Notes under the pieces: generated by a model
What the model was told of the DNA's origin: nothing
Seen by the model: only the letters and a program-made list of their open reading frames with translations
Databases searched by the model: none
Position numbers and translations under genes: made by a program
Shown: positions 59,983 to 64,000 of the stretch, piece after piece
Position numbering within the stretch: the stretch's first letter is position 1
Layout of the letters: the number at the start of each line of letters is the position of its first letter
Assembly: GCF_000092425.1 (NCBI RefSeq)
Contig: NC_014221.1
Span: 2,175,001 to 2,239,000 of the forward strand
Direction of reading: 5' to 3'
DNA: 64,000 nt
Source: Truepera radiovictrix DSM 17093
GTDB lineage: Bacteria; Deinococcota; Deinococci; Deinococcales; Trueperaceae

Positions 59983-60687
59983 GTGCGGCTCCACACCGAG
60001 CTCCTTTCGCCGACCCCACCCCGCGACGTCGCGGTGGTGATCGATGTGCTGCGGATGACGACGACCGCGAGCAACCTCTTTGCGCGCGGCCTCAGCGAAC
60101 TCTTCGTGGTCGCCGAGCTCGACGACGCGCGGGCGCAGGCCGCGCGTACCGGCGCGCTCCTTTTGGGGGAGCGCGGCGGTCACCCCGTCCCCGGCTTCGA
60201 CGGCGGCAACTCGCCCCTAGAGCGCCTCGAGGTCGCCGGGCGCAGCGCGGTGCTCTGCACCACCAACGGCTCCAGGGCGGTCGCTGCCGTGGCACCGGCG
60301 CGGCACGTGCTCTTGGGGAGCGTCGTAAATGCGCGGGCGACGGCGGCGCGGGCGCTGACGCTCGCCAAAAGCGGCATCACCCTGGTGTGCGCCGGGACGC
60401 TCGGGCGGGTGTCGCTCGACGACGTCGTCGGCGCGGGGTGCGTCGCGCGCGAGCTGCTCAAGCTCGAGCCCAGCTTGCGCACGGGCGACGCGACCGCCCT
60501 CGCGCTCAGCCTCGTCGAGGGGCAGCGCGACCTTGGCGCCCTGCTGCGGCGCGCGGAGCACGCCAGGCACCTGCTGACGCTCGGCTACGCCCGCGACGTC
60601 GCCTTTGCCGCCCGCCTCAACGCGCTCGAGGCGGTGCCCGAACGCGACCCCAAAAACCCGCTGCGTTTTACCCTCCCGGAGCGCTAG
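59983..60687 (+). CDS. ComB-like 2-phosphosulfolactate phosphatase
   Basis: The 234-residue protein has the ComB pattern: AVVIDVLRMTTTASNLFARG, LLLGERGGHPVPGFDGGNSP, VLCTTNGSRAV and LVCAGTLGRVSLDDVVGAG. ComB removes phosphate from 2-phosphosulfolactate, a step in coenzyme M synthesis in methanogens and in sulfolactate metabolism in some bacteria. No other gene of that pathway is nearby, so the substrate here is uncertain. The GTG start has TGTAAT 5 nt upstream. Confidence 0.85.
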   Translation: MRLHTELLSPTPPRDVAVVIDVLRMTTTASNLFARGLSELFVVAELDDARAQAARTGALLLGERGGHPVPGFDGGNSPLERLEVAGRSAVLCTTNGSRAVAAVAPARHVLLGSVVNARATAARALTLAKSGITLVCAGTLGRVSLDDVVGAGCVARELLKLEPSLRTGDATALALSLVEGQRDLGALLRRAEHARHLLTLGYARDVAFAARLNALEAVPERDPKNPLRFTLPER

Positions 60688-60688
60688 T

Positions 60689-61099
60689 TTGGACGCCCCC
60701 CCGCCCCTTTTCGTCGCCGCGGTCGCCGTCGTGATTCGCCGCGAGGGCACGGTGCTCGCCATGCGCCGCGCGCGCACCAAAGACGCCGGGGCGGGGCTCT
60801 GGGAGACGCTTTCGGGGCGCGTTGAAGCGGGTGAAGACCCCCTCGAGACAGCCCGACGCGAAGTCCGCGAGGAGTGCGGGCTCAGGGTCGCGTTCGAGGC
60901 GCGCCCGCTGACCGCCTACACCGCGACGCGCCTGGATCATCCGATGATCGTCCTTGTCTACGCTGCCGACTACCGCTGCGGCGAGGTCACTCTGAGCGCC
61001 GAACACGACGCGTACGCGTGGCTCACGCCGGAGGCGTTCGCCGCGCGCACCCCCCTCGCCAAACTCGCCGCGGCGGTTCGGCTCGCCCTCTCCCGCTAA
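60689..61099 (+). CDS. Nudix hydrolase
   Basis: I chose the TTG at 60689, one base after the ComB stop and with CGGAG 8 nt upstream; it gives 136 residues. The full Nudix box is present (GRVEAGEDPLETARREVREE continuing CGL). The N-terminal VAAVAVVIRREGTVLAMRRA is typical of small NTP-cleaning or housekeeping Nudix enzymes. Substrate unknown. It is probably co-translated with the ComB-like gene. Confidence 0.82.
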   Translation: MDAPPPLFVAAVAVVIRREGTVLAMRRARTKDAGAGLWETLSGRVEAGEDPLETARREVREECGLRVAFEARPLTAYTATRLDHPMIVLVYAADYRCGEVTLSAEHDAYAWLTPEAFAARTPLAKLAAAVRLALSR

Positions 61100-61146
61100 G
61101 CATCCCCACCTTCACCCTAGGCCACGCGACTCGGGTATGGTAGGTC

Positions 61147-61509
61147 ATGCTCGGGCAAGCTCTGAAAAAGCGCGAAACCATCCTTGTCACCACCACCCCG
61201 CACCTAGAGGGCCTTCGCATCGCGGCCTATCACGGGGTCGTGAGCGGCGAAGCGATCATGGGAACGAACATCTTCCGCGACATCTTCGCCGGCATCCGCG
61301 ACATCGTCGGCGGGCGCAGCGGCGCCTACGAAAAGGCGCTACGCAAAGCCAAAGCGATCGCGCTGCGGGAGATGGAGGAGGAGGCGCGGCGGCTCGGCGC
61401 CAACGCGGTGATCAGCGTGGCCATCGGCTACGAAAACATCTCCCTACGCGACGGCAGCGGGATGCTCATGGTGTGCGCGAGCGGCACCGCCGTCACGATC
61501 GCTTACTAG
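61147..61509 (+). CDS. UPF0145 (YbjQ-like) protein
   Basis: The 120-residue protein matches the YbjQ/UPF0145 family: [30 protein letters not shown], then [23 protein letters not shown]. Members form pentameric shells and have no settled function; a metal-binding role has been proposed. TATGGT lies 5 nt before the ATG, so the message is probably leaderless. Confidence 0.87.
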
Positions 61510-61542
61510 GGAAGCTCACCGGGACCGGCTGGTCACCGCTCG

Positions 61543-61571
61543 TTGACTTTCGCGCACGGCCCTGCTACGAT
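61543..61571 (+). promoter_or_regulatory. Promoter of the AspRS leader
   Basis: TTGACT (61543-61548), 17 bp, TACGAT (61566-61571). Transcription should start within a base or two of the ATG at 61580, making the leader peptide message leaderless or nearly so. Confidence 0.8.
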
Positions 61572-61579
61572 ACCCCGCA

Positions 61580-61645
61580 ATGACGCCCCCCCGCTCCCCC
61601 CAACGCGCGCGCCGCAATAACGACCGCAGGAGGCTCGGGGCTTAA
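61580..61645 (+). CDS. Leader peptide of the AspRS gene
   Basis: A 21-codon frame begins just after the promoter and ends at TAA (61643-61645). It is rich in Pro and Arg and contains consecutive Asn13 (AAT), Asn14 (AAC) and Asp15 (GAC). Starved ribosomes would stall there, leaving CTCGGGG (61634-61640) free to pair with CCCCGAG (61670-61676) and so block the terminator at 61670-61690. Ribosomes reaching the stop codon would cover 61634-61640 and let the terminator form. The peptide has no other evident function. Inferred from sequence architecture. Confidence 0.72.
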   Translation: MTPPRSPQRARRNNDRRRLGA

Positions 61646-61669
61646 GCGTCGAGAAGGCCGACGTCGCTA

Positions 61670-61696
61670 CCCCGAGGCTACCCCTCGGGGTTTTTT
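61670..61696 (+). terminator. Attenuator terminator upstream of the AspRS gene
   Basis: CCCCGAGG (61670-61677) pairs perfectly with CCTCGGGG (61683-61690) across a 5-nt loop, followed directly by six T residues (61691-61696). The 5' arm can alternatively pair with 61634-61640 at the end of the leader peptide frame. It lies 48 bp before the AspRS start. Confidence 0.85.
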
Positions 61697-61744
61697 CGTG
61701 GCGCGGCGTCACGGCACCCCGGCGAAGCCGCGACGAGGAGACCT

Positions 61745-63052
61745 ATGAGCACACCCCCTACCCCACCCGCCGAACCCCTTCAGCGCCACCTCATCAGCGA
61801 CCTGCCCGAGGCACTAGGGCAGACGGTGACGCTGCAGGGTTGGGTCTACAGCCGCCGCGACCTGGGCGGCATCCGTTTTCTGCTGCTGCGCGACCGGAGC
61901 GGCGTGGTGCAGTGCGTCTTCGGCAAAACCGAGCTGCCGCTCGCCGAGTCGTGCGTGCGGGTCACCGGTCGGGTCGCCGAGAGCCCCAAAGCCCCGGGCG
62001 GTCTGGAGGTGCACGCCGAGGCGCTCGAGCTCATCACCAACGCGGCCGAACCCCCCCCCATCGAGATCCCCAAAGAGGCGTGGCACGTCAACCCCGACAC
62101 GCTCTTGGAGTACCGCCACGTCTCCTTGCGGAGCCCCAAGGCGCGCGCGGCGCTCAAGGTGCAAGCGGAGCTCGTGCGCGCTTTTCGGGAGGTGTTGAGC
62201 GCGGAGGGCTTTACCGAGATCTTTACGCCCAAGCTCGTCGCCGCCGGCGCAGAAGGGGGCGCGGCCCTTTTCGAGGTCGACTACTACGGCAAGCGCGCCT
62301 ACTTGGCACAGTCGCCGCAGCTCTACAAACAGATCATGGTCGGCGTGTTCGAACGGGTCTTCGAGGTCGCGCCGGTCTATAGGGCCGAGCTGTCGCACAC
62401 CTCCAGGCACCTCTCGGAGTACCTGTCGCTCGACGTCGAGTTGGGGTTTATCGACTCCGACGAGGACGTCATGGCGCTCGAGGAGCGCCTGCTCAAGGCC
62501 ATGATGCGCGACGTCGCCGAGCGCTGCGCGCCGGAGTTCGCGCTGCTGGGGGCCGCGGCGCCGGACCTCAGCGCGCCCTTTCCGCGCCTGACGCTCCTTG
62601 AAGCGCGCGCGTTGGTGCGCGAGCGTTACGGCCACCAGACGGGCGGTAAAGACCTCGACCCCGAAGCCGAGCGGCTCGTCGGGCGCTGGGCCAAAGAGGA
62701 GCGGGGGTCGGACTTCGTCTTTGTCACCAACTACCCGCAGGCCGCGCGCCCCTTTTACACCTATCCGACCGACGACGGGCTCACCCGCGGCTTCGACCTC
62801 CTCTTCCGCGGCGTCGAGATCACCTCGGGGGGGCAGCGCGTCCACGAGTACGGGACGCTCATCGCGCAGCTTCGCGCGCGCAACCTCGACCCGGAGGCGT
62901 TTCGCGGCTACCTCGAGGTCTTTAAGTATGGGATGCCCCCCCACGGCGGTTTCGCCATCGGCGCCGAGCGGCTCACCGCGCTCCTTTTGGGTATCGCCAA
63001 CGTGCGCTTTGCGCGGGCTTTCCCCCGCGACGGCAGCCGCTTGCACCCCTAG
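61745..63052 (+). CDS. aspS: Aspartyl-tRNA synthetase, archaeal-type (probably non-discriminating)
   Basis: The 435-residue class II synthetase has an N-terminal OB-fold anticodon domain (about 15-115, GWVYSRRDLGGIRFLLLRDRSG) and a catalytic domain with motif 2 near FEVAPVYRAELSHTSRHLSEY and motif 3 GFAIGAERLTALLLG. It lacks the large GAD insertion of bacterial AspRS and closely follows the pattern of Thermus AspRS2, which charges both tRNA-Asp and tRNA-Asn with Asp for later amidation by GatCAB. The ATG follows GAGGAG. Expression is probably controlled by the leader attenuator. Confidence 0.92.
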   Translation: MSTPPTPPAEPLQRHLISDLPEALGQTVTLQGWVYSRRDLGGIRFLLLRDRSGVVQCVFGKTELPLAESCVRVTGRVAESPKAPGGLEVHAEALELITNAAEPPPIEIPKEAWHVNPDTLLEYRHVSLRSPKARAALKVQAELVRAFREVLSAEGFTEIFTPKLVAAGAEGGAALFEVDYYGKRAYLAQSPQLYKQIMVGVFERVFEVAPVYRAELSHTSRHLSEYLSLDVELGFIDSDEDVMALEERLLKAMMRDVAERCAPEFALLGAAAPDLSAPFPRLTLLEARALVRERYGHQTGGKDLDPEAERLVGRWAKEERGSDFVFVTNYPQAARPFYTYPTDDGLTRGFDLLFRGVEITSGGQRVHEYGTLIAQLRARNLDPEAFRGYLEVFKYGMPPHGGFAIGAERLTALLLGIANVRFARAFPRDGSRLHP

Positions 63053-63058
63053 GTCCCC

Positions 63059-63673
63059 CTAGCGGGACTCGGCGAAGAGCGGCGTCAGGCGCTCCGCGCG
63101 CGGGACGCGGTGACAGGCGCGGCAGCGCGGCTCGTACGCCTCCGCTGCGCCGACGAGGATGACGGGGTCATCGTAGTGCGCCGGATGCCCCCCGATGAGC
63201 CGCTGCGTGCGGGTCGCCGGGGCGCCGCAGCGGACACACACGGCGGTGAGCTTGGTGACCGATTCGGCGCGCGACAAAAGCTCCGGCATGGGTCCAAAGG
63301 GTTCAGCGCGAAAGTCGAGGTCGAGCCCGGCGATCATCACCCGCTTGCCGCTTTCGGCGAGGTCGCAGGCAAAACCGACGAGCGCCGCCGAGAGAAACTG
63401 CCCCTCGTCGATAGCGACAACCTGCACCGCCTCCGAGAGCGCCGCGCGCATCTCCTCCACGTCGCTAACGGCGAGCGCTTCGAGCGTGCGCCCGTTGTGC
63501 GACGCGACCGCCTGCGCGTGGTAGCGCCCGTCAAGCGCGGGTTTGAATACCTGCACCCGCTGCTTGGCGATAAAGGCGCGCGTGACGCGGCGGATGAGTT
63601 CTTCGGACTTGCCGGAGAACATGGGGCCGACGATGAGCTCGAGAAAACCTCCGCGGAAAGGGTGAAACAGCAT
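63059..63673 (-). CDS. tdk: Thymidine kinase (type II)
   Basis: The 204-residue protein begins [20 protein letters not shown] and has the P-loop GPMFSGKS, the DEGQF motif of thymidine kinases, and a zinc site from CVRC and the later CRACH. It phosphorylates thymidine to dTMP in the salvage pathway. I prefer the ATG at 63673 because TAGAGT lies 5 nt upstream, over a longer frame starting at 63733. It is convergent with the AspRS gene, 6 bp apart. Confidence 0.94.
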
Positions 63674-63678
63674 AGGGC

Positions 63679-63684
63679 ACTCTA
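63679..63684 (-). promoter_or_regulatory. Leaderless -10 box of tdk
   Basis: TAGAGT on the minus strand, five bases, ATG; same box as for glgX. Confidence 0.55.
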
Positions 63685-63720
63685 CCGCAGAAGGCCGCGC
63701 GGCCTGGAGCGGCGCGCGGA

Positions 63721-63752
63721 CCAAACAGAACACCCCGCGTTGCCGCGGGGTG
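63721..63752 (-). terminator. Intrinsic terminator of the right-edge gene
   Basis: CACCCCGCG (63731-63739) and CGCGGGGTG (63744-63752) form a perfect 9-bp stem with a TTGC loop. On the minus strand TTCTGTTTGG follows. It lies about 20 bp past the stop of the Q/D-rich protein gene. Confidence 0.75.
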
Positions 63753-63770
63753 CCTCCTTTAAAGAGAAGC

Positions 63771-64000
63771 TTAGTTGCCCTGGTTGTCCTGGTCGTCCTG
63801 CTGGTCTTGCTGACCCTGCTGATCTTGTTCGTCTTGCGCGCCAGCTTGATCCTGCTGGTCTTGTTGCTGACCCTGCTGCTGGTCTTGCTGGTCTTGGTCC
63901 TGCTGGTCGTCAGCTGGCTCTTGCTGCGCCCCTTGCAGCGTCGTCCCGACGAGCAGCACCTCGAGCGGCTCCGCTTCGAGCGGCGTCCCGATAACGAACA
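63771..64000 (-). CDS. Partial protein with a Gln/Asp-rich C-terminal tail
   Basis: The gene enters from the right edge, and only the last 75 codons are visible. The upstream part reads [28 protein letters not shown], apparently a folded domain end. The last ~47 residues are almost only Gln and Asp with a few Gly, Ala, Asn and Glu, up to the TAA at 63771. I do not recognise the family from this piece; the folded part is only vaguely like pilus-assembly or SAF-type domains. The tail is acidic and probably disordered. Confidence 0.6.

Follow-up and report, generated by a model that had tools for sequence, protein, structure and literature searches.

We conclude that the leader of aspS2 in Truepera radiovictrix DSM 17093 is very probably a leaderless, ribosome-mediated transcription attenuator that would sense charged tRNA-Asn in the first place and charged tRNA-Asp in the second. 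From sequence and its conservation we infer leaderless translation, ribosome stalling, termination and the signal that is read in vivo. Because the device recurs in nearly all of the relatives examined, the enzyme is probably switched on when charged Asn tRNA is short. The window, by which we mean the whole stretch of 64,000 nucleotides that was analyzed (NC_014221.1, positions 2,175,001 to 2,239,000), holds the following features, numbered from its first letter:

61543 to 61571, forward strand: promoter TTGACT-17-TACGAT with TG ahead of the -10 box, bases read directly
61580 to 61645, forward strand: leader open reading frame of 21 codons, MTPPRSPQRARRNNDRRRLGA, presumed leaderless, with Asn plus Asp enriched in its own frame only
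61616 to 61624, forward strand: putative sensor codons AAT AAC GAC (Asn13, Asn14, Asp15), 18, 15 and 12 nt upstream of the antiterminator arm
61634 to 61640, forward strand: predicted antiterminator 5' arm CTCGGGG, inside the final three sense codons before the leader stop
61669 to 61677, forward strand: predicted terminator 5' arm ACCCCGAGG, of which 61670-61676 doubles as the antiterminator 3' arm
61683 to 61696, forward strand: predicted terminator 3' arm CCTCGGGGT and T run
61745 to 63052, forward strand: aspS2, archaeal-type aspartate--tRNA(Asn) ligase of 435 aa, assigned by structure and equivalog matches

The region has the features of an attenuator, that is, an open reading frame between promoter and terminator, a conserved codon enrichment, a terminator ahead of the gene and an antiterminator competing for the terminator 5' arm. 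The preliminary description had seen here a promoter that opens almost directly onto a 21-codon peptide with consecutive Asn, Asn and Asp codons, and both elements match base for base: TTGACT occupies 61543-61548 and TACGAT 61566-61571 with a spacer of 17 nt between them, the ATG at 61580 lies 8 nt past the -10 box, the three codons are AAT (61616-61618), AAC (61619-61621) and GAC (61622-61624), and the TAA ends at 61645. There is no second promoter-like site in 60500-64000 (the mean in shuffled sequence is 0.2). The exact complementarity claimed between CTCGGGG (61634-61640) and CCCCGAG (61670-61676) is borne out as well, and so are the terminator hairpin and its T run, with one correction: the stem described as 8 bp is better counted as 9 bp if the closing A-U pair is included (61669-61677 with 61683-61691), which makes the first of the six T residues (61691-61696) part of the stem. 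The minimum-energy fold of the window sequence is the antiterminator for 61631-61700 and the terminator for 61646-61700. Most Trueperaceae leaders carry CGTCG beyond their stop codon (61630-61660 and its equivalents in the alignment), and in the window this motif folds as a small hairpin within the antiterminator loop.

How might such a leader work? Transcription would begin at or near the ATG, and a ribosome loading on the leaderless 5' end would trail the RNA polymerase. With ample charged tRNA-Asn (and tRNA-Asp) the ribosome would reach the stop codon and cover CTCGGGG, leaving CCCCGAG to pair with CCTCGGGG as the terminator, so that transcription would halt ahead of aspS2. If charged tRNA-Asn were scarce, the ribosome would instead stall at the Asn/Asp codons, 12-18 nt short of CTCGGGG. 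That arm would then still be free as CCCCGAG emerges, the antiterminator would form first and the polymerase would continue into aspS2. The additional AspRS2 would place Asp on tRNA-Asn, which GatCAB would amidate to Asn-tRNA-Asn by the presumed Asn route.

The layout of ribosome-mediated attenuation proposed in the preliminary description is supported by anatomy, conservation, codon enrichment and placement, and competing pairing. An alignment of aspS2 leaders, which the same description had suggested, showed that five families retain the peptide with its Asn/Asp codons as well as the terminator and the pairing that competes with it. The sample consisted of 90 aspS2 upstream regions from five families of one order, including Trueperaceae and Thermaceae, with aspS2 homologs gathered from the genomes of the order and from public contigs; Deinococcus was not identified among them, and a plasmid search for Deinococcus homologs gave none among the matches listed. 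A script called the leaders from a -35/-10 pair, a start codon 3-16 nt beyond it, for which ATG was given preference, and the first stop codon in frame, ignoring which residues were encoded. The device is present in 89 of the 90 regions, and 87 leaders are complete; those of G001 and G021 are visible though cut by contig ends. The one genome without a leader is G037 (L099, G037:C20:9500-10300), because its aspS2 overlaps the preceding gene, which by eye is peptidase-like. Two aspS2 homologs, G077:C11:81897-83177 and G085:C97:2140-3420, have one in-frame TGA each.

A promoter pair, which the search required, stands 7-11 nt ahead of the leader start in 87 of the 90 upstream regions. For all 87 complete leaders, the ATG falls 7-11 nt past the -10 box. 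We presume from this spacing that the leader transcript starts at the ATG or within a few bases of it and is translated without a leader of its own.

Could an ordinary terminator and an accidental open reading frame have produced this picture? Short open reading frames and GC-rich hairpins are common in such DNA, and shuffled versions of the whole leader fold just as well (z -0.18), for which reason fold energy is left out as evidence. Recurrence of the layout in nearly all related genomes means that it is not due to chance, and the enrichment of Asn plus Asp is far above that of the other frames: across 75 distinct peptides the two account for 23% of residues, whereas the two alternative frames give 1.3% and 3.6%. 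We consider the probability of a chance arrangement negligible.

The codon content of the leaders points to Asn as the near-invariant signal, with Asp second. Asn occurs in 86 of the 87 complete leaders, Asp in 67 and an adjacent Asn/Asp pair in 78. The peptides themselves differ between families. A typical Trueperaceae leader is MTPSTTRRQDDNRDARALGA, and leaders of this family often have two Asp codons ahead of Asn (DDN), although L018 (G025) has Asp but no Asn and L016 (G004) has a single Asn far from the arm. Family f3 typically has MRGLLNNDR and family f5 MKCFFNNSADDDN, and in Thermaceae the open reading frame may be as short as 7-10 codons. Other typical peptides are MLRADDNL (L030) and MCPRLLNNG, the latter found in L137 and likewise in the Thermus parvatiensis record L053. 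An attenuator of the same build could instead sense Asp-tRNA-Asp, or the balance of Asp and Asn, with Asn-tRNA-Asn no longer the main signal. This would account for the many Asp codons, above all for the DDN arrangement of Trueperaceae, but many Thermus-like leaders carry NN without Asp (e.g., MRPRLLNNG), only one leader has Asp without Asn, and Asp-tRNA-Asp is also within reach of the bacterial AspRS1. We therefore regard this alternative as rather unlikely.

Placement of the codons is as telling as their number. In all of the families compared the Asn/Asp codons lie about 9-24 nt from the G-rich antiterminator arm, and few occur in other parts of the peptides, whereas the position of the stop codon shifts. 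The Trueperaceae arm falls in the last peptide codons, with the stop codon beginning about 9 nt past the arm start; in Thermaceae the stop codon is about 4 nt ahead of the arm, and families f3 and f4 have the arm beginning about 4 nt past the first base of the stop codon. A constant distance from the Asn/Asp codons to the arm despite a shifting stop is what stalling needs, since a ribosome stalled at these codons would free the arm and one at the stop would cover it.

Among 20 GC-rich Trueperaceae, AAT accounts for 19 of the 26 leader Asn codons and for 2 of the 87 in the aspS2 genes (Fisher p 7e-14, a value that overstates independence given the shared descent of the leaders). Use of this rare codon could sharpen the sensing, or it may reflect sequence composition. 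A more elaborate reading, which we hold as tentative and would not call likely, is that of a dual-residue sensor in which the Asn codons report Asn-tRNA-Asn and the flanking Asp codons report the competing Asp-tRNA-Asp, so that the micro-ORF balances a synthetase of dual specificity; the rare AAT would then set the sensitivity, and the device would be an old one common to the families of the order.

Returning to the Asn-sensing attenuator, conservation of its RNA structure was assessed on both pairings. In each of the four families tested, complementarity between the arms exceeds that of shuffled arms, and an arm's own partner beats a swapped one (0/2000 swaps did as well overall, 1/2000 in Trueperaceae). 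No such difference between own and swapped partners was seen inside family f3 or inside f4, where the arms are nearly invariant. Covariation is clear for the terminator, with five pairs showing two-sided changes and a score reached by 0/500 shuffles, and modest for the antiterminator, with two such pairs and a score reached by 21/500 shuffles. Equilibrium folding predicts that the terminator, once complete, beats the antiterminator in most leaders, from which it follows that the switch has to be kinetic. A co-transcriptional calculation, chosen post hoc after equilibrium folding had failed as support, assumed that the ribosome covers 12 nt downstream from the first base of the A-site codon and took as the stalled state a ribosome at the first Asn/Asp codon. 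As long as the terminator 3' arm has not emerged, Trueperaceae leaders are predicted to hold the 5' arm upstream with a mean probability of 0.82 when the ribosome is stalled against 0.24 when it is at the stop, and the hold is greater in the stalled state in 82 of 85 leaders.

Does the leader act on transcription at all, or does its open reading frame act on translation, by reinitiation, by coupling or through a hairpin that masks the aspS2 start? Most hairpins of genus g20, which is Thermus-like, lack a T run (e.g., L123, L130, L139, L143), and leader open reading frames that boost translation of the downstream gene by reinitiation have been proposed for bacteria including the Deinococcus-Thermus group (PMC4833913). 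T residues do follow the hairpin in Trueperaceae, in families f3 and f5 and in most of f4, however, and the distance from leader stop to gene is 52-206 nt compared with a peak at 10-11 bp in that study; in addition, the Shine-Dalgarno-like GAGGAG at 61735, ahead of the aspS2 start in the window, is well outside the hairpin. An effect on translation thus seems improbable.

Still less probable, to a degree that makes it a distant prospect, is autogenous control, in which AspRS2 would bind a tRNA-like element of the leader and the peptide would be incidental. There is precedent for this in some other synthetase genes, such as E. coli thrS. The Asn/Asp codons of the aspS2 leaders nevertheless differ in number and show synonymous exchanges (GAC/GAT, AAC/AAT) yet remain in frame, and no Rfam element was found; the Rfam scan upstream of the window aspS2 gave no T-box match, and its anti-hemB match is due to chance (17.2 bits against a cut-off of 49.5). 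The leader model matched the same genome at a second place (G000:C1:935183-935302), a match that was rejected, being a terminator without an Asn/Asp leader peptide in the aspS2 layout; it adjoins what by eye is an S20-type open reading frame on the opposite strand.

What would an attenuator responding to Asn serve? The solved structure closest to the window aspS2 product is T. thermophilus AspRS-2 (1n9w, E 9.7e-175), and its KAPGG aligns with KAPGG of 1n9w and KAKLG of 3nel; the His site of 1n9w is Tyr in the window protein. Both aspartate--tRNA(Asn) ligase equivalogs score over their cut-offs (NF003483, 564.9 bits, cut-off 353; TIGR00458, 396 bits, cut-off 368.4), and the enzyme has the anticodon-binding-loop proline that we take to mark a non-discriminating archaeal-type AspRS, so that the preliminary assignment to this class stands as a prediction. 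The same genome encodes AsnRS, the bacterial AspRS1 and GatB. No asparagine synthetase was found over the cut-off in the genome, the one weak match spanning model positions 27-171 only. It had also been proposed that the sensed tRNAs depend on AspRS2 for their charging if it serves both: the Asn/Asp signal holds, but sole dependence does not, because AsnRS and AspRS1 can also provide charged tRNA-Asn and tRNA-Asp. Given this gene complement, the best reading of aspS2 and GatCAB is that together they form the route to Asn itself. According to passages of PMC4206432, a second AspRS with GatCAB makes Asn on tRNA-Asn in D. radiodurans and T. thermophilus, and attenuation by Asn codons would then amount to product control. 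The better reading of the leader may therefore be product control of tRNA-dependent Asn synthesis (AspRS2 plus GatCAB). If so, bacteria that make Asn on its tRNA control the first enzyme of the route by the charging of that very tRNA. An asparagine synthetase match over the cut-off was obtained in 30 of 111 genomes, several of which keep the leader (e.g., G020, G035, G056, G080); weak leaders occur in some asparagine-synthetase genomes of one genus and also elsewhere. Upstream of asnS and aspS1 of the same genome no such leaders were seen.

Leaderless attenuators seem to be a general tool of the order, to judge from three other leaders. Ahead of ilvB in the same genome (L163, G000:C1:231967) a TTGACA promoter precedes MTPAPTPPSARPLFGDALLPVAALVLILGRRGVV, a micro-ORF with a cluster of branched-chain codons that ends LLPVAALVLILGRRGVV and a stop codon and is followed by a GC hairpin and T run; it is likely an ilv attenuator of the same design. 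Similarly, a micro-ORF reading MTLPSVLWWPG to its stop lies with a hairpin ahead of a trpE-like gene (L160, G093:C3:16600-17900), and MRSVLALSLALVLIVGPAGGGA, also closed by a stop codon, lies with a hairpin ahead of an ilvB-like gene (L159, G088:C106:1284250-1285500), both genes being identified by eye. In D. deserti, 85 leaderless open reading frames have been reported at the start of leadered mRNAs (PMC11596967), and the aspS2 leader might be among the orthologous cases.

The search of the literature, in which most subscription papers were outside reach, found no attenuation by Asn/Asp codons, no leader-peptide control of an AspRS and no description of the regulation of tRNA-dependent Asn synthesis or of attenuation in Deinococcus or Thermus. 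The D. radiodurans and T. thermophilus systems share with ours the archaeal-type second AspRS, AsnRS and GatCAB, and the passages of PMC4206432 concerned are enzymology, with no mention there of aspS2 regulation. With the classical amino-acid and synthetase attenuators (trp, his, leu, ilv, pheST), to which candidate trpS2 and leuS attenuators in Streptomyces may be added (PMC1262725), the aspS2 leader has in common the short open reading frame with cognate codons, the intrinsic terminator and the antiterminator, all at a spacing that lets a stalled ribosome choose between structures. It differs in that it would sense both Asn and Asp, in that its target, a non-discriminating AspRS, feeds the synthesis of Asn on tRNA, in its presumed leaderless start and its brevity (7-10 codons at the shortest, in Thermaceae), and in that no general protector (1:2) hairpin is seen. 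The leaderless cysteine-rich uORFs of mycobacteria (PMC4633059) are likewise micro-ORFs with clustered relevant codons ahead of metabolic genes, but they concern another amino acid in another phylum, and the aspS2 leader adds to this a conserved terminator and a pairing competitor at fixed spacing. We conclude that the aspS2 leader is a new, widely conserved case within the known class of ribosome-mediated attenuators. The last comparison is with the T-box leaders that stand ahead of aspS-type genes in Firmicutes and Chloroflexi. They precede homologs of the same enzyme and are thought to report tRNA charging, but do so by binding tRNA directly without translation. T-box-like motifs (of the GGGTGGCACC type, by eye and without an Rfam scan) are present in the leaders of clostridial and Chloroflexi aspS2 homologs (L065-L068, L070, L074-L078), and two unrelated RNA devices thus seem to serve one gene family.
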